From NCBI RefSeq assembly GCF_900120295.1, contig NZ_LT635469.1:434001-498000 (forward strand): a DNA stretch of 64,000 bases, given 5' to 3'. Each line of letters begins with the position of its first letter. The stretch's first letter is position 1. This document shows, piece by piece, positions 1-38,327 of the stretch. Position numbers and translations under genes: made by a program. The notes below the pieces were generated by a model that saw only the letters and a list, made by a program, of their open reading frames with translations, had not been told where the DNA came from and searched no databases. The DNA is from Blautia sp. Marseille-P3201T. Its GTDB lineage: Bacteria; Bacillota; Clostridia; Lachnospirales; Lachnospiraceae.

Positions 1-99
1 GAAGGAAAAGAAATTGAAATGAATTGTCATTTCTGCAATAAGAATTATATTTTTACAGTAGAAGAATTAAAGAATATTTTAAAAGCGTGCAGAAAATAA
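1..99 (+). CDS. hslO: C-terminal end of Hsp33 redox chaperone (partial)
   Basis: The window opens inside this gene; only the last 32 codons and the TAA are present. They encode a CHFC motif (residues NCHFCNKNY) followed by a short helix, which matches the end of Hsp33, where a CxC pair and a CxxC pair bind zinc and act as the redox switch of this cytosolic holdase. The CxC pair lies outside the window. The next gene starts 26 bases later with its own ribosome site, so the two could be co-transcribed. The call rests on the zinc motif and its closeness to the stop; a different zinc-binding C-terminus is possible but less likely. Confidence 0.7.
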   Translation, partial: EGKEIEMNCHFCNKNYIFTVEELKNILKACRK

Positions 100-18103: not shown

Positions 18104-18131
18104 GTATAAAAATTAAAATCAGGGCCATACT
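18104..18131 (+). promoter_or_regulatory. Sigma-G-like promoter of the small spore protein gene
   Basis: GTATA (18104-18108), a 17-base spacer and CATACT (18126-18131). This agrees with the forespore consensus GHATR / CATNHTA except the last base. The -10 overlaps the left arm of the hairpin at 18125-18152. Start of transcription would fall about 7 bases after the -10, in the hairpin loop. Confidence 0.5.
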
Positions 18132-18159
18132 CCAAAGAAGAAAGGAGTGTGGCTTTTTT
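18125..18159 (+). terminator. Terminator of the padR operon that also covers the next gene's ribosome site
   Basis: CCATACTCC (18125-18133) pairs with GGAGTGTGG (18144-18152), with a 10-base loop and then CTTTTTT. It is a good rho-independent terminator for pspC. Its right arm carries the GGAG ribosome site of the small spore protein gene starting at 18160, so RNA reading through from upstream would hide that site. Confidence 0.8.
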
Positions 18160-18363
18160 ATGTCAGCAAAAAAAGAAGAAAAAATTGATTTAAATAATAT
18201 TCCGGAAGAAGAAAAAGTAAAGTATGAAATTGCAGAGGAATTAGGACTTTTAGATAAAGTTTTAGACAGCGGATGGAAAAGTCTGTCGGCCAAAGAAACA
18301 GGGCGTATAGGCGGACTTATGACAAAGCGAAAAAGGGAAAATGAGAGAAAGAAAAATGCTTGA
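18160..18363 (+). CDS. Small acid-soluble spore protein, alpha/beta-type-like
   Basis: A 67-aa, Lys/Glu-rich protein. The core KYEIAEELGLLDKVLDSGWK followed by SLSAKETGRIGGLMTKRKR follows the two conserved blocks of alpha/beta-type SASPs (the E/Q-LG block and the G-R-x-GG-x-M-x-KR block). Those proteins coat and protect forespore DNA and are degraded on germination. It is the divergent clostridial form, so the call is by pattern. The promoter just upstream looks sigma-G-dependent, which supports it. The ribosome site AAAGGAG is 12 bases before the ATG, inside the preceding terminator stem. Confidence 0.75.
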   Translation: MSAKKEEKIDLNNIPEEEKVKYEIAEELGLLDKVLDSGWKSLSAKETGRIGGLMTKRKRENERKKNA

Positions 18364-31713: not shown

Positions 31714-33207
31714 ATGAATTGTGTTGTATGTCAAGCAGTATTGACGGCTTCTGACTATTGTCCGAAATGCGGATGTAATGTAAAGGCACTGAAGAAAATC
31801 GATGCTTTATCCAATTTTTATTATAATCAGGGGCTTGAGAAAGCTCAAATTCGAGATTTGTCAGGGGCCATTACCTGTCTGAAGCGAAGCCTGAAAATGA
31901 ATAAAATGAATATACAGGCAAGAAATCTTCTGGGACTGGTATATTTTGAAACAGGGGAAGTGGTGGCTGCTTTAAGTGAATGGGTAATCAGCAAGAATAT
32001 GATGCCGGAGGGAAATCTGGCAAGCACATATATTGACAAGCTGCAAAAAAATACCAATCGCCTTGATATGATCAATACAAGTATTAAAAAGTATAATCAA
32101 TGTCTGGAATATTGTAGAAACGGTAATCCGGATATGGCGAAAATGCAGTTAAAGAAAGTGCTTACCAACAATCCAAAGCTGATTAAGGGGTATCATTTAC
32201 TGGCACTTTTATATATTCATGAGGGTGAGTATGAAAAGGCCAGAAAACAACTGAAAACAGCGGCAAAAATTGATAAAACCAATACCACAACTCTTCGCTT
32301 TTTAAGAGAAATTGAGGAGCAGACAGGAAGAGCTACGAATTTGGACTCGCGATTTAAGATAAGAGAGAAAGAGGAAGAAAAGCAAAACGGAAGTGTTGTA
32401 TATAAGTCCGGCAATGATACCATTATTCAGCCGCCGGAATATAAGGAAAAGAGTATTACAAATACACTGGTCAATCTGCTTTTGGGACTTTTAGTAGGTG
32501 CAGCAGCTCTTTGGTTTTTGATTGTGCCTGCAAAGACGCAGAAAATCAATCAGGAAGCGAATAAAAAGGTTGTGGAATACAGTGGGAAAATGGCAACCTT
32601 ATCTGCAGAACTTGCACGTATGCAGGAGGAGATGGACGCTTCAACAGAGTCTGTAAATACGGCGCAGACCCAAATTCAGGAGGCAGGAGAAAAGGCTGCG
32701 GCTTATGAAAATCTTATAAAAGCATGGCAGGCTCATCAGGAAGGGAATTCCGATACAGCAGCCAATGCCATTGAAGGAGTCAACGCAGAACTTCTTTCTG
32801 TAGAAGCCAAAAGTATGTACGACAGCATTATGAAATCTGTAGGCTCTATGGTGCGTAAAAAATATGTGAATGAAGCTTCCGCTGCTGTGGAAAGCGGAGA
32901 TTATGATACTGCTATTGCCAGTTTGGAAAAAGCTTTGAATATTGGAAAACAGGATAGAAATACCATGTTCCAGTTAGCACAGGCTTATGATAAAAAAGGT
33001 GATACAGAAAATGCAAATCAGTGGTATCAGAAAATTATAGATGAATTCCCCGGAACAAAGGCGGCTTCTGATGCCAAGGATTATCTGGAGGCGAATGGCG
33101 GTTCCGCCCAAGCTCCATCAGAAAGCGAAGGAGATGGAGAAGCCCCAACAGAAGACGGGGGACAGACAGATGGAGAACTACAGTCAGGAGAAACTATAGA
33201 AGAATAA
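31714..33207 (+). CDS. Zinc-ribbon, TPR and single-membrane-helix protein
   Basis: A 497-aa protein. A zinc ribbon comes first (CVVCQAVL...CPKCGC, residues 3-22), then cytosolic TPR repeats (about 30-200), one membrane helix (LVNLLLGLLVGAAALWFLIV, about residue 252-272), a coiled coil, and extracellular TPRs (AAVESGDYDTAIASLEKAL, MFQLAQAYDKKGDTENANQW). The C-terminal tail of 45 residues is Glu, Ser and Gly rich. TPRs on both sides of the membrane suggest a scaffold for an envelope complex; the partner is unknown. It is last in the folC unit and is followed by a terminator. Confidence 0.8.
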   Translation: MNCVVCQAVLTASDYCPKCGCNVKALKKIDALSNFYYNQGLEKAQIRDLSGAITCLKRSLKMNKMNIQARNLLGLVYFETGEVVAALSEWVISKNMMPEGNLASTYIDKLQKNTNRLDMINTSIKKYNQCLEYCRNGNPDMAKMQLKKVLTNNPKLIKGYHLLALLYIHEGEYEKARKQLKTAAKIDKTNTTTLRFLREIEEQTGRATNLDSRFKIREKEEEKQNGSVVYKSGNDTIIQPPEYKEKSITNTLVNLLLGLLVGAAALWFLIVPAKTQKINQEANKKVVEYSGKMATLSAELARMQEEMDASTESVNTAQTQIQEAGEKAAAYENLIKAWQAHQEGNSDTAANAIEGVNAELLSVEAKSMYDSIMKSVGSMVRKKYVNEASAAVESGDYDTAIASLEKALNIGKQDRNTMFQLAQAYDKKGDTENANQWYQKIIDEFPGTKAASDAKDYLEANGGSAQAPSESEGDGEAPTEDGGQTDGELQSGETIEE

Positions 33208-33233
33208 ATACAGAAGAAAAACCTTGGAGAAAA

Positions 33234-33261
33234 GGCGTGTACGAGAAGTATGCGTCTTTTT
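33234..33261 (+). terminator. Rho-independent terminator after the TPR gene
   Basis: GGCGTGTAC (33234-33242) pairs with GTATGCGTC (33248-33256) with G-U pairs, five-base loop, then TTTTT. The large palindrome starts in its U-tract. Confidence 0.7.
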
Positions 33262-33511
33262 GCTGTTTTACATAATGAATATATGTTTCAGAAGTGCAGG
33301 CGTAGCTATTCCATGGCAAACGCAGTTATTTTCTTGTTTTTCTGCACCATTTATGGATATTTTGTCCGCCAAACTCGTGCTGACGCACTCAGACACGGTT
33401 CCCAAAATACCATTATGCTCGAAAAACTGCGAAAATATTCTGCATTGTTTGCCATTGGAATACTGAGCCTGCATCTGGAAATGGATATAAGTTATTTATG
33501 CAAAACAGCGT
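33259..33511. repeat. Imperfect palindrome of about 250 bp
   Basis: The left half (33259-33383) and the reverse complement of the right half (33387-33511) align nearly end to end. Outer ends are GCTGTTTT and AAAACAGC; then TGCAGGCGTAGCTATTCC with GGAATACTGAGCCTGCA, CCATGGCAAAC with GTTTGCCATTGG, and TTTTTCTGCACCAT with the matching right-hand segment. The centre is CGTG / CACG around a short loop. It resembles a long-hairpin MITE or a long-stem structured RNA. I see no terminal target duplication and no coding. Confidence 0.75.
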
Positions 33512-33617
33512 AGAGATTTCTAAATCATTAGTTGAATTTGTCTATACAAAATAGTAGTAAATAAATCTTAGTATTAAATATAAGTATAATAGTTGAAATG
33601 AAAGGGTGACAGTGAAG

Positions 33618-33953
33618 ATGGAGGATAGAATTAAGAAGCGTGGAAATCAGTTGATTGTGTATGTCCCAAAGGAGTTAGACCATCATTTTGCAGAGCAGAT
33701 TACGCCGCAGGTTGACAGGGAACTGGAAAAGGGGTTGATAAAGCAGCTGGTTTTTGATTTTTCGGAAACCAGTTTTATGGACAGTTCAGGAATTGGGATG
33801 GTAATGGGAAGAAAGCGTATTCTAAGTTACAGTAAAGGGACAGTTGTTGCTATTCATGTGAATGACAGAGTTTTAAAAATTATGCAGCTTTCCGGTATTT
33901 ACAAACATATTGAAATCAGTCAGGAACCGGTATGGAATTATAGAATGAGATAA
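33618..33953 (+). CDS. spoIIAA: Anti-sigma F factor antagonist SpoIIAA
   Basis: A 111-aa STAS-domain protein. The phosphorylatable Ser lies in SFMDSSGIGMVMGR, the exact family motif; before it is GLIKQLVFDFSET, after it AIHVNDRVLKIMQLSGIYK. Dephosphorylated SpoIIAA binds SpoIIAB and frees sigma F in the forespore. Two upstream in-frame GTG codons (33606, 33612) are alternative starts; AAAGGG at 33601-33606 is compatible with either 33612 or 33618. It is first of the three-gene spoIIA operon. Confidence 0.93.
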   Translation: MEDRIKKRGNQLIVYVPKELDHHFAEQITPQVDRELEKGLIKQLVFDFSETSFMDSSGIGMVMGRKRILSYSKGTVVAIHVNDRVLKIMQLSGIYKHIEISQEPVWNYRMR

Positions 33954-33963
33954 GGGGGAGAAT

Positions 33964-34407
33964 ATGAACGGGGATAACAAAATGGTTCTGAAAGTAGAGA
34001 GCCGTTCTTGCAATGAAGGACTGGCAAGAATTGCAGTGGCTGCGTTTACTACGCAGCTTAATCCTACATTAGAAGAGGTAGCAGATATTAAGACGGCAGT
34101 ATCAGAGGCAATTACAAATTGCATTGTTCATGCATATCAGAGGGAAACAGATATGATTACGATAGAATGCAGACGACATCAGAGAGAATTGACCGTGTTG
34201 GTACAGGATAAAGGAAAAGGGATAGAAGACGTAGAACAGGCAATGCAGCCGCTTTTTACTACAAAACCTGAGCAGGACAGATCAGGAATGGGATTTGCAT
34301 TTATGGAAGCATTTATGGATGAGGTTTTGGTAGAGTCTAAGCTTGGAGAAGGAACAACTGTAACTATGAAAAAAACAATAGGCAGACAGAAAGATGTCTT
34401 TGAGTAG
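33964..34407 (+). CDS. spoIIAB: Anti-sigma F factor and kinase SpoIIAB
   Basis: A 147-aa GHKL-fold kinase that holds sigma F inactive and phosphorylates SpoIIAA. The N-box VSEAITNCIVHAY, the G1 box VQDKGKGIEDVEQA, the lid TTKPEQDRSGMG and the G2 region GTTVTMKK are all present. The ATG follows AAGGGGGAG, ten bases after spoIIAA. Gene order spoIIAA-spoIIAB-sigF is the same as in Bacillus and Clostridium. Confidence 0.95.
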   Translation: MNGDNKMVLKVESRSCNEGLARIAVAAFTTQLNPTLEEVADIKTAVSEAITNCIVHAYQRETDMITIECRRHQRELTVLVQDKGKGIEDVEQAMQPLFTTKPEQDRSGMGFAFMEAFMDEVLVESKLGEGTTVTMKKTIGRQKDVFE

Positions 34408-34416
34408 GAGGGCTGT

Positions 34417-35130
34417 ATGGATGATATCCTTGCCCTTATCGGGCGTGCACACCAGGGAGATAAGAGCGCAAGAGATATACTTACAGAAAAAAATATGGGA
34501 CTGGTACATAGTATTGCCAGAAGATTTCAAAACAGGGGGGCTGAGTTGGAGGACTTGATACAGATAGGCTGTATCGGGCTTTTAAAGGCCATAGATAAAT
34601 TTGATTTAAGCTATGAAGTGAAATTTTCCACGTATGCAGTGCCTATGATAACAGGAGAAATTAAGCGTTTTTTAAGAGATGACGGTATGGTAAAGGTAAG
34701 CCGGTCTTTAAAGGAAGCAGCGGGAAAGGCTTATGCAGTAAGGGAAGAATTATTAATGAAAACAGGACAGGAGCCATCTACGGAGGAAATAGCAAAGGAA
34801 CTGTCTTTATCAAAAGAAGAATTAATTATGGCAATGGAGTCTTCGGCACAGGTAGAGTCTTTACAGAAAACCATTTATCAAAGTGATGGCAGTGATATTG
34901 CTTTGGAGGACAAACTGCCTTATGAAAAAGATGAACAGGAGGAAGTTTTAGACAAGCTTCTTTTAGAAGATATACTGGGGAGTCTGAATGCAAGGGAAAG
35001 AGAACTGATTTACCTGCGATTTTTCAGAGAAAAGACACAGACCAGTATTGCTCAGATAATGGGAATGTCTCAGGTACAGGTTTCCAGATTGGAAAAGAAA
35101 ATTTTAAAAGCGCTGAGGGAACGGATATAA
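34417..35130 (+). CDS. sigF: RNA polymerase sporulation sigma factor F
   Basis: A 237-aa sigma-70-family factor, the first forespore-specific one. Region 2 contains HSIARRFQNRGAELEDLIQI, GLLKAIDKFD and YEVKFSTYAVPMITGEIKRF; region 3 is SLKEAAGKAYAVREEL; region 4 ends with QTSIAQIMGMSQVQVSRLEK. It has AGGAGG nine bases after spoIIAB. The next operon, spoVA, begins 49 bases later with its own promoter-like signal and a hairpin over the ribosome site. Confidence 0.95.
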   Translation: MDDILALIGRAHQGDKSARDILTEKNMGLVHSIARRFQNRGAELEDLIQIGCIGLLKAIDKFDLSYEVKFSTYAVPMITGEIKRFLRDDGMVKVSRSLKEAAGKAYAVREELLMKTGQEPSTEEIAKELSLSKEELIMAMESSAQVESLQKTIYQSDGSDIALEDKLPYEKDEQEEVLDKLLLEDILGSLNARERELIYLRFFREKTQTSIAQIMGMSQVQVSRLEKKILKALRERI

Positions 35131-35151
35131 TGATGAAATTCGGACATAATA
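35123..35151 (+). promoter_or_regulatory. Sigma-G/F-like promoter of the spoVA operon
   Basis: CATAATA (35145-35151) is a perfect match to the sigma-G -10 consensus CATNHTA. GGATA (35123-35127) lies exactly 17 bases before it and matches GHATR except its second base. The -35 lies within the last codons of sigF. In Bacillus spoVA is a sigma-G operon, which supports the call. Confidence 0.65.
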
Positions 35152-35171
35152 CTCCTTAGTAATGTAAGGAG
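35152..35171 (+). promoter_or_regulatory. Hairpin covering the spoVAA ribosome site
   Basis: CTCCTTA (35152-35158), a six-base loop and TAAGGAG (35165-35171). The right arm contains the AAGGAGG Shine-Dalgarno of spoVAA. The left arm begins right after the sigma-G-like -10 box, so RNA started there (about 35158) would lack most of it. No U-tract follows, so it is not a terminator. Confidence 0.65.
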
Positions 35172-35179
35172 GTTGTCAG

Positions 35180-35812
35180 ATGAGCGAAATCTTATATATA
35201 CAGACAGAGAAAAATGTAGAAGTACAAAGTCCTGAAGTTTATTTGCAGGATGTGGCAAAACTTACGTGCAGTGATAATAAGGTTTTAAACAGGAACAAAG
35301 TAAGAAAAGTTTTTTCCATTCCAAATGGGACGCCGGGCAGATATGTGATTTCAGCTGTGGATTTAGTCCATGCCGTGGCAAAAGAAGAACCTAATGTAGA
35401 TGTAACCCATATTGGAGAAGCAAATTTTGTGGTTACTTATGAAAAAGCAAAGCATCAACAAAAATGGTATAGCTGGTTAAAGACTTTATTTGTCTGCGTG
35501 CTGACTTTTTTTGGAGGTGCTTTTTCTATTATGACCTTTAATACTGATGTAGATACAGCGAATTTATTTTCTAAAATTTATACACAGTTTACAGGGGAGA
35601 TAGCTGCAGGTCCTACGATTTTAGAATTCACTTACTCTGTGGGGATTGGAATTGGTGTTATCTTTTTCTTTAACCATTTTGGGAAAGGTAAGCTTACGCA
35701 AGATCCAACACCGGTGGAAGTTCAGATGCGGTTATATGAAGATGATGTGAATAAAACTCTTATTGCGGATAAAAATCGCAGCAGGAAAACACAGAAGGGG
35801 GAAAAATCTTAA
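35180..35812 (+). CDS. spoVAA: Stage V sporulation protein AA
   Basis: A 210-aa protein with a cytosolic domain (about 1-95, EILYIQTEKNVEVQSPEVYL, HIGEANFVVTYEK) and two membrane helices (LFVCVLTFFGGAFSIMTF; YSVGIGIGVIFFFN) with the conserved FNTDVDT between them. It is part of the SpoVA channel that takes dipicolinic acid into the spore and releases it at germination. It overlaps spoVAB by one base (TAATG). An AAGGAGG ribosome site lies inside the hairpin at 35152-35171. Confidence 0.92.
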   Translation: MSEILYIQTEKNVEVQSPEVYLQDVAKLTCSDNKVLNRNKVRKVFSIPNGTPGRYVISAVDLVHAVAKEEPNVDVTHIGEANFVVTYEKAKHQQKWYSWLKTLFVCVLTFFGGAFSIMTFNTDVDTANLFSKIYTQFTGEIAAGPTILEFTYSVGIGIGVIFFFNHFGKGKLTQDPTPVEVQMRLYEDDVNKTLIADKNRSRKTQKGEKS

Positions 35813-36231
35813 TGTGGCAGGGAGAAATTCTGGCGGGTATTGCAGGTATCTGCGGCGGAGCAGTAGTGGCAGTGGCTTTGGCGGCGTTTATAATAGAGTT
35901 GGGAATTATTCCAAGGTTCGCTGGGATTACGCATACGGCGGACCATATTTTCTTATATGAAAATTGCCTTATACTGGGAAGTTTTCTGGGAAATCTGGTA
36001 TATATTTATCATCTGTCTGTACCACTTGGGAAAGTTTTTGCAGGTTTGACAGGGATTTTTTTCGGAATGTTTTTAGGCTGCTGGATTATCGCCCTTGTGG
36101 AAGTTATTAATGTATTCGCTGTAATGGCAAGAAGGCTGGGGTTGAAAAAAGGAATTGGCTGGATTGTAATCTGCATTGCAGCCGGAAAAACTCTGGGGAG
36201 CCTTTTCCAATTTTGGACAATGGGACGTTGA
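35812..36231 (+). CDS. spoVAB: Stage V sporulation protein AB
   Basis: A 139-aa protein with four to five membrane helices. It begins MWQGEILAGIAGICGGAVVA, contains ELGIIPRFAGITHTADH typical of SpoVAB, and ends with KKGIGWIVICIAAGKTLGSL. It is a membrane partner in the SpoVA dipicolinic acid channel. Translation is coupled to spoVAA through the TAATG overlap. It is followed by an 85-base gap, the largest inside this operon. Confidence 0.92.
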   Translation: MWQGEILAGIAGICGGAVVAVALAAFIIELGIIPRFAGITHTADHIFLYENCLILGSFLGNLVYIYHLSVPLGKVFAGLTGIFFGMFLGCWIIALVEVINVFAVMARRLGLKKGIGWIVICIAAGKTLGSLFQFWTMGR

Positions 36232-36316
36232 GCCTATATTTAAGGAGAAGTTTCAATCCGTTTGCATAAGATTGGAAGATACTCCGCATAATAGGCTTAA
36301 AGGTGGTGAATGGAAA

Positions 36317-36763
36317 ATGGATGCAAAACAATATGAAAAATATGTAAAGGAAAAGACACCGACGCATAATTTGTTTTTAAATATGTTAGGGGCTTTTGTG
36401 AGCGGAGGAATGATTTGTACGTTGGGACAGTTGATTTTAAATATTTGTAAAAATATAGGACTGGATAAAGAAATCAGCGGCAGTTGGACTTCGTTGATTT
36501 TAGTTTTAATCAGTGTGCTTCTGACAGGATTTAATATTTATCCTAAATTGGCGAAGTGGGGCGGGGCAGGAACGTTAGTTCCGATTACAGGATTTGCCAA
36601 TTCTGTGGCAGCGCCTGCTATTGAATACCAAAAGGAGGGGCAGGTTTTCGGCATTGGGTGTAAAATTTTTACTATAGCAGGACCTGTTATTTTATATGGG
36701 ATTTTAACTTCTTCCCTGTTGGGGCTGATTTATTATTTTTTGCATATATGGGGGATTGTGTGA
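36317..36763 (+). CDS. spoVAC: Stage V sporulation protein AC
   Basis: A 148-aa membrane protein with NLFLNMLGAFVSGGMICTLG, a central GAGTLVPITGFANSVAAPAI motif shared with SpoVAE, and a C-terminal hydrophobic helix. SpoVAC is the mechanosensitive channel component of the dipicolinate system. The reading frame extends further upstream, but AAAGGTGGTG just before 36317 and the family length give this start. Its TGA overlaps the spoVAD ATG by one base (TGATG). Confidence 0.95.
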   Translation: MDAKQYEKYVKEKTPTHNLFLNMLGAFVSGGMICTLGQLILNICKNIGLDKEISGSWTSLILVLISVLLTGFNIYPKLAKWGGAGTLVPITGFANSVAAPAIEYQKEGQVFGIGCKIFTIAGPVILYGILTSSLLGLIYYFLHIWGIV

Positions 36764-37776
36764 TGGAACAGATTGTAGGAAAACAGAGTATACAGTTTCA
36801 GCGTGCCGCCCATATATTAAGTGCGGCATCAGTTGTAGGAAAGAAAGAAGGAGACGGACCTCTTGGAAAGTATTTCGATAAGGTAGGAGAGGAAGATGGG
36901 CTTTTTGGATGTACTTCATGGGAGGAGGCAGAAAGTAATCTGCAAAAAGAAGCGGTTACGCTGGCTCTTGAAAAAGCGGAGCTTGAAAAGTGGCAGCTGC
37001 GTATGATTTATGCAGGAGATTTATTAGCTCAGACCATAGCTTCTTCTTTTGGAATTATGGGATTTCATACTCCAATATATGGACTTTATGGAGCATGTTC
37101 TACTATGGGAGAGGCACTTTCGCTTTCTGCTATGGCAGTTGCAGGGGGATATGCACCTTATGTAGCTGCTGTTACATCCAGTCATTTTGGCAGTGCAGAG
37201 AAAGAATTTCGTTTTCCCTTAGGTTATGGAAATCAACGTCCTTTATCTGCTACATGGACTGTGACGGGAAGCGGTGCCTGCATCCTGGGGACTAAAGGAG
37301 GAAAGGCGAGAATTGCAGGGATTACAACAGGGAAAATTGTGGACTATGGATTTAAAGACTCTTTAAATATGGGAGCCTGTATGGCACCGGCTGCCTGCGA
37401 TACTATTTATCAAAATCTCATGGATTTTAATCGCCTTCCTGAAGATTATGACAAAATTATTACCGGAGACTTAGGAGAAGTAGGTCAGAGAATTCTCTTT
37501 GATTTGATGAAAGAAAAGGGATTTGATATTGAAAAGCAGCATATGGACTGCGGCATTGAAATTTTTGACCAGAATACGCAGGATACCCATGCGGGAGGAA
37601 GCGGCTGTGGCTGTGCTGCAGTTACTTTTGCCGCCTATATTCTTCCTAAAATAGAAAAGGGGGAATGGAAGCGTATTTTGTTTGTGCCTACAGGTGCGCT
37701 GCTTTCAAAGGTCAGTTTTAATGAGGGAAAAAGCGTGCCGGGGATTGCGCAGGCGGTGATTATTGAACATTGTTAG
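36763..37776 (+). CDS. spoVAD: Stage V sporulation protein AD
   Basis: A 337-aa soluble thiolase-fold protein that binds dipicolinic acid for the SpoVA channel. It has GKQSIQFQRAAHILSAASVV, LLAQTIASSFG, YGACSTMGEALSLSAMAVAG, TSSHFGSAEKEFRFPL and a C-terminal HAGGSGCGCAAVTFAAYILP. The start chosen is the ATG overlapping the spoVAC stop, with GGGGG seven bases before. Length and motifs match the family throughout. Confidence 0.96.
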   Translation: MEQIVGKQSIQFQRAAHILSAASVVGKKEGDGPLGKYFDKVGEEDGLFGCTSWEEAESNLQKEAVTLALEKAELEKWQLRMIYAGDLLAQTIASSFGIMGFHTPIYGLYGACSTMGEALSLSAMAVAGGYAPYVAAVTSSHFGSAEKEFRFPLGYGNQRPLSATWTVTGSGACILGTKGGKARIAGITTGKIVDYGFKDSLNMGACMAPAACDTIYQNLMDFNRLPEDYDKIITGDLGEVGQRILFDLMKEKGFDIEKQHMDCGIEIFDQNTQDTHAGGSGCGCAAVTFAAYILPKIEKGEWKRILFVPTGALLSKVSFNEGKSVPGIAQAVIIEHC

Positions 37777-37787
37777 GAGAAGAAATT

Positions 37788-38144
37788 ATGGAATACATCA
37801 ATGCGTTTTGGGTGGGAGGATTGATTTGCGCTTTGGTACAGATCCTCCTGGAAAAAACAAAATTGCTTCCGGGAAGAGTAATGGTTTTGCTGGTGTGTGC
37901 TGGAGCAGTACTGGGAAGTTTTGGAGTTTATGATAAAATTATTGAATTTGCAGGAGCAGGGGCAAGTGTGCCTTTGCTGGGATTTGGAAATACACTTTTT
38001 AATGGCGTGAAAAAGGCAGTTCTGGAACATGGTTTTTTGGGGATTTTCATGGGTGGATTTACTGCAAGCGCAGTGGGAATTGCGGCTGCGTTGATTTTTT
38101 CCTATCTTGCCAGTCTGATTTTTAAACCAAAGATGAAAAACTAA
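37788..38144 (+). CDS. spoVAE: Stage V sporulation protein AE
   Basis: A 118-aa membrane protein with about three helices and the SpoVAC/AE motif GAGASVPLLGFGNTLFNGVK. It begins YINAFWVGGLICALVQILLE and ends near LIFKPKMKN. It is a membrane part of the dipicolinate channel. TTAGGAGAAG precedes the ATG; an in-frame TTG further upstream is ignored. It is the last gene of the spoVA operon here; no spoVAF is seen. Confidence 0.94.
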   Translation: MEYINAFWVGGLICALVQILLEKTKLLPGRVMVLLVCAGAVLGSFGVYDKIIEFAGAGASVPLLGFGNTLFNGVKKAVLEHGFLGIFMGGFTASAVGIAAALIFSYLASLIFKPKMKN

Positions 38145-38227
38145 GCTATACTTTTTAGTTAATCAATAGTATAATGATAGTGTTTAGCTTAAATTATGAA
38201 AATAAAAGTTTTGTATGAATTGTGTAT

Positions 38228-38276
38228 TGTATCATTCTGCTGGTCAATTGACAAAATGTGAGTGATACAGTACACT
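38228..38276 (+). promoter_or_regulatory. Promoter with inverted repeat before tcdA
   Basis: TTGACA (38248-38253), a 17-base spacer and TACACT (38271-38276). TGTATCATTC (38228-38237) and GAGTGATACA (38260-38269) are inverted repeats that flank the -35 box, so a dimeric regulator could bind here. The regulator is unknown. Confidence 0.6.
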
Positions 38277-38327
38277 GCATTTTATTTAATAATTTATAAA
38301 AAATGTAGTAACAGGAGGAAACGGAAA

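Follow-up and report, generated by a model that had tools for sequence, protein, structure and literature searches.

Fold-back inhibition in the insertion sequences IS10 and IS50 guards a mobile element against external promoters: transcripts entering the element fold so as to cover the start region of the transposase gene. In bacteriophage T4, genes such as e (lysozyme), soc and I-TevI are carried on long early RNAs that fold over the Shine-Dalgarno (SD) sequence or AUG, whereas RNAs from the late promoters just upstream are missing the 5' portion of this fold and are translated; for gene e, two reports give an effect of about 100-fold (PMC3014915, PMC2988022). For Bacillus subtilis sigG (spoIIIG), one report proposes a predicted hairpin that would keep RNA reading through from the spoIIG promoter from being translated; in RNA initiated at PsigG, this hairpin would be unable to form (PMC5942855). 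The T4 hairpins belong to phage late promoters and have been shown experimentally, whereas the spoVA hairpin described here belongs to a chromosomal forespore-type promoter and the evidence for it is comparative. Likewise, the B. subtilis case concerns one gene, with 20 or more pairs, in Bacillus, whereas Lachnospiraceae present candidates at spoVA, ytvI, a Clp-protease-family gene and SASP genes besides sigG, where the arm sits at the -10 box. The same two operons can also be kept apart by an intrinsic terminator lying between sigF and spoVA, but this operates at the level of transcription. What looks new is the extent of the mechanism across forespore genes; T4 provides the known case and B. 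subtilis sigG a proposed one. The open literature yielded no account for spoVA, ytvI, Clp-family or SASP genes, which is weak evidence, as the queries named no ytvI, SASP or Clp and subscription papers lay mostly outside the search.

The window, a stretch of 64,000 nucleotides from the 2.94-Mb genome of Blautia sp. Marseille-P3201T (Lachnospiraceae), contains spoIIAA-spoIIAB-sigF followed, after a gap of 49 nt, by spoVAA and more spoVA genes (Table 1). NCBIfam models for SpoIIAB and SpoVAE and the subfamily models for SigF/SigG and SpoVAD scored above their cut-offs, and those for SpoIIAA, SpoVAC and SigF specifically scored below. The intergenic region carries a forespore promoter of the consensus type (GNATA-like -35 element, about 17 nt, CATAMTA-like -10 element), with a spacer of 17 nt and the -35 element immediately before the sigF stop codon TAA (35128-35130). 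Most relatives have GTATA, GCATA or GAATA as their -35 element, and GGATA is weaker than these. GGACATAATA fits the -10 consensus of sigma-F equally well, the promoter fitting both sigma-F and sigma-G. The C. difficile spoVAC promoter is described as nearer the SigF consensus (PMC7438776). The preliminary description had reported a GGATA-17-CATAATA promoter running directly into CTCCTTA-loop-TAAGGAG, with the right arm as the spoVAA SD, and both the arrangement and the identity of that arm were confirmed. A leader element or riboswitch was considered and rejected, as no Rfam match reached the gathering score in 33200-38300. The promoter-like site before spoVAC (36264-36293) reads GCATA-18-CATAATA; at the equivalent site of L246, GCCCTC pairs with GAGGGC, and L254 and L265 pair weakly.

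Table 1. Promoter, hairpin and gene features in the window.
Feature	Position	Strand	Basis or remark
spoIIAA-spoIIAB-sigF	33606..35130	+	ORFs, NCBIfam; co-directional, presumed source of read-through RNA
-35 element GGATA	35123..35127	+	Overlaps sigF 3' end; sigma-F/sigma-G (forespore-type) promoter
Outer left arm GACA	35143..35146	+	Duplex calculation; can pair with UGUC 35174-35177
-10 element CATAATA	35145..35151	+	Sequence; relatives have a similar promoter behind sigF
Left (locking) arm CTCCTTA	35152..35158	+	Between -10 element and predicted start site
Loop GTAATG	35159..35164	+	Sequence
Right arm TAAGGAG, spoVAA SD	35165..35171	+	Anti-SD duplex -12.8 kcal/mol
spoVAA, 210 aa, first spoVA-operon gene	35180..35812	+	ATG 35180; Pfam PF12164 SporV_AA
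CATAATA before spoVAC, promoter-like, inside spoVA operon	36287..36293	+	Counter-case: no lock, duplex 5.7 kcal/mol
Second in-window instance	18104..18159	+	GTATA 18104-18108, 17 nt, CATACTC 18126-18132
Second-instance stem AGGGCCATACTCC / GGAGTGTGGCTTT	18121-18133 / 18144-18156	+	Covers -10 element and SD; T-run before ATG
Alpha/beta-type SASP-family gene, 67 aa	18160..18363	+	PF00269 above cut-off; behind second instance

From the usual promoter geometry, transcription presumably starts at 35158 (+), 6-7 nt past the -10 element, which places the left arm between the -10 element and the start; across the family, the spoVA pairing signal stops near the predicted start. The helix over the spoVAA start region covers the SD, and the possible GACA-UGUC pairing would bring the -10 box partly into the stem. 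The spoVA promoter would thus also be the template of an anti-ribosome-site arm. RNA running in from spoIIAA-AB-sigF would include the -10 region together with the seven bases after it (...ACAUAAUACUCCUUA), and by pairing with UAAGGAG this arm would make the start region of spoVAA inaccessible; a transcript from the spoVA promoter would start at about 35158, lack the arm and be translatable. The lock would therefore let spoVA follow sigF immediately, with no terminator between them, and yet keep spoVA translation dependent on the spoVA promoter. A promoter-encoded lock on read-through RNA is considered the best explanation of the spoVAA hairpin, with a probability of about 0.8; the sequences, the pairing specific to each locus, the place of the signal and the contrast in terminators are observed, and the start site, read-through, effect on translation and timing are what we infer.

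Among the 56 SD-bearing open frames of at least 100 codons on both strands of the window, some of which are surely no genes, a 7-bp Watson-Crick stem onto the SD occurs once, at spoVAA, and the others include one 6-bp and four 5-bp stems. One gene below this length limit, at 18160, has a longer stem than that of spoVAA, with a G-U pair. The fold from 35151 onwards has an energy of -10.6 kcal/mol (shuffle z of -1.98), which by itself is not convincing for the spoVAA hairpin. An SD that happened to meet a pyrimidine-rich stretch in one strain, to no functional effect, would agree with this z of only about -2, with the shortness of a 7-bp stem and with the lack of a clear stem in many relatives. 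Set against this, when the 60 nt upstream were shuffled 20,000 times with dinucleotides preserved, at least seven Watson-Crick pairs to UAAGGAGG within 40 nt arose 20 times, the hairpin is kept in two relatives (L002 and L003), and locus-specific pairing recurs family-wide and in further gene families; chance is thus unlikely and was rejected as the main reading.

spoVAA was present in all 20 genomes of the genus searched. The hairpin is unchanged in L002, and L003 keeps the 7-bp stem with a changed loop, GGCA at its outer-arm site preserving pairing through a G-U pair; the loop measures 5-6 nt in L001-L003 and is far longer in L084 and L068. In L006 and L007, TTCCTG faces CAGGAA, adjoining the SD, while in a second Blautia clade (e.g., L015, L016, L018 and L019) the arm lies between the -35 and -10 elements (CCTTCCCTG-type against CAGGGAGG) and is consequently absent from any locally started RNA. 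Pairing is weak to moderate in L004, L005, L012, L017 and L020, no clear lock was found at the chosen start in L009-L011 (Blautia), and the pairing of L008 is unsafe owing to an apparent frame disturbance near its start. Runs of 16 consecutive pairs in L084 and 11 in L068 involve arms in the -35/-10 spacer, which a locally started RNA would not contain. In L068, a MITE-like insertion with inverted ends (GAGTGTGTCT...AGACACGCTC) lies between the -10 element and the start and parts the arms, which are still complementary over 11 bp despite it. The spoVA operon is rearranged in L075, L100 and L107, where a spoVAE-like ORF rather than sigF precedes spoVAA.

The family-wide evidence comes from a swap test at the first gene after sigF, in which the 35 nt from the -35 element to the predicted start site were paired with the start region of that gene and the duplex energy of each locus was compared with that of permuted partners, so that motifs, SDs and composition were kept on both sides. 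Own promoters paired better than swapped ones in Blautia (n=20, z=4.2), in 41 other exploratory loci (z=4.9) and in 37 later-fetched loci (z=4.4), with control windows further upstream at z -1.9 to 1.0. A contiguous-stem measure gave z of 2.8 (Blautia), 5.6 (exploratory) and 3.5 (later), with one upstream control at 2.7. The later loci were fetched after the idea had been written down, but their sequences were seen before the test windows were fixed, so this set is not blind; without its hand-set loci (n=35), 0 of 20,000 permutations were as good. Eighty later loci were taken in match-list order, skipping matches from the own genus, one second match and three that lay close to contig ends, and 37 entered with a recognised sigF end, a promoter score of at least 13 and a credible start. 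In an earlier set of 80 named loci, 43 had no recognised sigF end and lay outside the test (upstream DNA viewed for 29, ORFs for four). Excluded were 17 loci repeating others already in the set and the identical cores L120 and L178, and L132, L113, L034, L088 and L196 were dropped for want of a credible start. Starts were set by hand for L204, L161, L023 and L014, and L068, L070 and L017 were added by hand; these choices of loci and starts were made after the sequences had been seen.

Sliding windows placed the signal at -20..+12 of the -10 element (z=6.5 at -4..12 in non-Blautia loci), with z of at most 1.7 further upstream. In 29 loci with long leaders, the leader itself gave -0.07 as against 3.25 for the promoter window. 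A two-way map identified the SD/start region as the pairing partner and revealed, at spoVA loci, an extra outer helix between -40..-24 and codons 10-14 (z=3.9). By eye, this outer helix is discernible in L023, L030, L031, L032, L038, L039, L049, L147 and L152, where up to about 11 bp join the region just past the sigF stop to codons ~11-15 of a small first gene; between L023 and L031, the letters differ in both strands of the helix. Many Lachnospiraceae loci (e.g., L030, L032 and L049) have an ORF of about 50-60 codons, apparently for a membrane protein, between the promoter and spoVAA.

With one locus per 70%-identity cluster (24 clusters), z was 3.7 (4/20,000); at 62% identity, z was 1.7 with only 5 clusters left, and clustering below 70% is uninformative because 5 or 1 clusters remain. 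At least seven consecutive Watson-Crick pairs occur in 9 of 73 non-Blautia spoVA loci, compared with 5.5% of swaps, from which it follows that many loci have a weak lock or none. The lock is a tendency across loci and no rule, and a good part of the single loci show no pairing. The pairing is kept in relatives through sequence change, statistically across loci; a lack of pairing conservation was a refuting outcome named in the preliminary description, and the lock was not refuted on this count. Inverted repeats at -10 are a common form of operator, and the repeat might instead be a DNA site through which a forespore regulator acts over the promoter. Arm sequence, length and spacing vary widely, yet complementarity to the SD/start region stays; a fixed operator is very improbable and was rejected as the main reading.

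As controls, the same kind of window was applied to neighbouring genes: z was 8.1 for the first gene after sigF, 0.2 for the start of sigF itself, and 1.9 and 1.7 for the gene following the first. The mean excess was -1.0 in the nine loci whose promoter is separated from sigF by an intrinsic terminator, compared with 2.1 in 89 others (p=0.004). A terminator after sigF was found in 11 of 12 loci outside Lachnospiraceae versus 8 of 98 inside, or 16 of 138 inside without the promoter filter. The 12 outside loci are those with a recognised sigF end among 17, from genomes drawn by a class search (10/147) and a phylum search (10/199), the own genome being counted in both. Two terminator scans inside the family made the same call on 5 loci and differed on the rest; the terminator called at L019 by the second scan is probably false, since this locus has a strong lock. 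Such a contrast would be expected if read-through is dealt with either by a terminator or by a lock. In L043, L096, L099, L115 and L146, the sigF-end terminator (GCGGGGAAAG...CTTTCCCCGTATATTTTT) and the -35 box of the spoVA promoter overlap, and these loci have little or no pairing excess.

The hairpin could itself be a terminator of the upstream operon that forms in read-through RNA only, with the SD as its right arm. Such a role would be in keeping with a run of at least four T residues before the ATG, present in 6 of 18 Clp-family loci, in the SASP gene of the window and in 5 of 27 strong-pairing versus 2 of 61 weak-pairing spoVA loci. At spoVA in the window, however, no T-run follows the hairpin (GTTGTCAG), and the terminator scan detected no + strand site between sigF and spoVAA, none at 35152-35171 either, where a weak match lies on the - strand; at ytvI, 0 of 18 loci have a T-run. 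As the main reading at spoVA, termination was rejected as quite improbable, and a terminator function is probably an added layer in some genes.

The lock is not special to spoVA; pairing recurs at ytvI, the Clp-family gene, sigG and SASP genes. The pattern GNATA-N17-CATAMTA has 18 matches in the genome of the window species, versus 4 for the reversed control pattern. Besides spoVA, two of the 18 stand before a credible gene and have a co-directional upstream neighbour whose end reaches the promoter, namely an RluA-family gene before ytvI and yebC before the Clp-protease-family gene, which we take to be tepA-like. The -10 region pairs with the start region in both, and they were picked for the family test because these own-genome examples paired. 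With windows fixed beforehand, promoter scores of at least 13 and L300 dropped, the family-wide z was 5.7 for ytvI (n=18) and 7.4 for the Clp-family gene (n=18). When loci of the own genus were omitted, the values were 4.9 (n=16) and 6.9 (n=17), each with 0 of 20,000 permutations as good, and lifting the score filter as well gave 6.1 (n=25) and 7.6 (n=26); control windows ranged from -1.3 to 1.2. At L306, about 15 consecutive pairs run across the -10 element and spacer. In L229, L246, L299, L307 and others, the upstream stop codon falls within the -35 box or at its end (GTATAA, GTATAG, GAATAA), a very tight packing of promoter and coding end.

For sigG (n=30), the highest z among 8 windows was 5.4, at -60..-44 relative to the start codon, and the whole of -75..-20 gave 6.1. 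SASP genes with a co-directional stop within 100 nt (14 genes) pair at 10.1 kcal/mol, versus 6.9 in 16 genes without one (one-sided p=0.005). Among those with strong promoters, the difference between abutting and free genes (7 vs 7) was not significant (p=0.15), and the own-pairing z of the 14 strong promoters was only 1.3. The in-window SASP gene has a predicted fold of -21.8 kcal/mol with 13 pairs. Over 18104-18363, its T-run adjoins the ATG after the stem, and terminator and start-site lock are possibly combined there.

Accessibility calculations compare the predicted cost of opening the start region in long and short RNAs. The long RNA had a family-mean excess of 4.5 kcal/mol at spoVA, 7.1 at ytvI and 8.6 at the Clp-family gene, as against 2.4, 2.9 and 2.5 with a foreign promoter; for the SD core, the corresponding values were 2.3, 3.6 and 7.2, as against 1.3, 1.7 and 2.5. 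The SD core is harder to open in the long RNA by 7.0 kcal/mol in L002 and 7.5 kcal/mol in L003. In the window species, opening the whole region costs 9.5-10.5 kcal/mol in the long and 7.2-8.6 in the short RNA. Its SD core costs 7.5 versus 0.65 with 9 nt of coding RNA and 5.5-8.0 versus 4.6-5.6 with 30-60 nt. When 40 nt of upstream and 30-60 nt of coding RNA are included, the SD-core gain is 0.9-2.4 kcal/mol; in the calculation of the type used for L002 and L003 it is 3.3. This modest predicted discrimination is attributed to the ability of the short RNA to pair UGUAAGGA with early codons. The earlier expectation that the SD stays open in the short RNA looks clear in L002 and L003, and the predicted effect is modest in the window species.

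Rather than choosing between RNAs, the pairing might also damp the locally started RNA. Its model would be the small second hairpin in the B. subtilis sigG leader (PMC5942855). The foldable short RNA of the window species points the same way, as does the Clp-family signal, which extends to +20, beyond the predicted start (z=4.5, n=11), so that part of the arm may remain in local RNA there. Damping is nonetheless improbable, given that long spoVA leaders lack locus-specific internal pairing and that arms in the -35/-10 spacer cannot occur in local RNA at all. The lock on read-through RNA, for its part, had been described as closing on that RNA only. This core idea gains strong comparative support: at each locus, the arm ahead of the predicted start is matched to that locus's start region, in other families too, and SASP genes pair more where a co-directional gene abuts the promoter. 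The preliminary interpretation as a whole is partly supported.

The same solution would apply at Lachnospiraceae forespore-type promoters behind co-directional genes, namely those of ytvI, the Clp-protease-family gene, sigG and some SASP genes, and at the loci examined outside the family a terminator after sigF would mostly take its place. It appears somewhat probable that such promoters are under double selection, for sigma binding and for an antisense arm to the start region, and that a regulon-wide lock replaces the sigF terminator of other Firmicutes, with forespore translation being set by promoter identity. Spore formation needs a strict order, yet forespore genes often lie directly behind earlier or vegetative genes. 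If the proposed mechanism is true, a promoter-encoded lock would explain the silence of leaky RNA, and promoter-to-start-site complementarity would be a searchable signature of internal developmental promoters. RNA-seq reads over spoVA and similar genes in gut Lachnospiraceae would then be no proof of protein.
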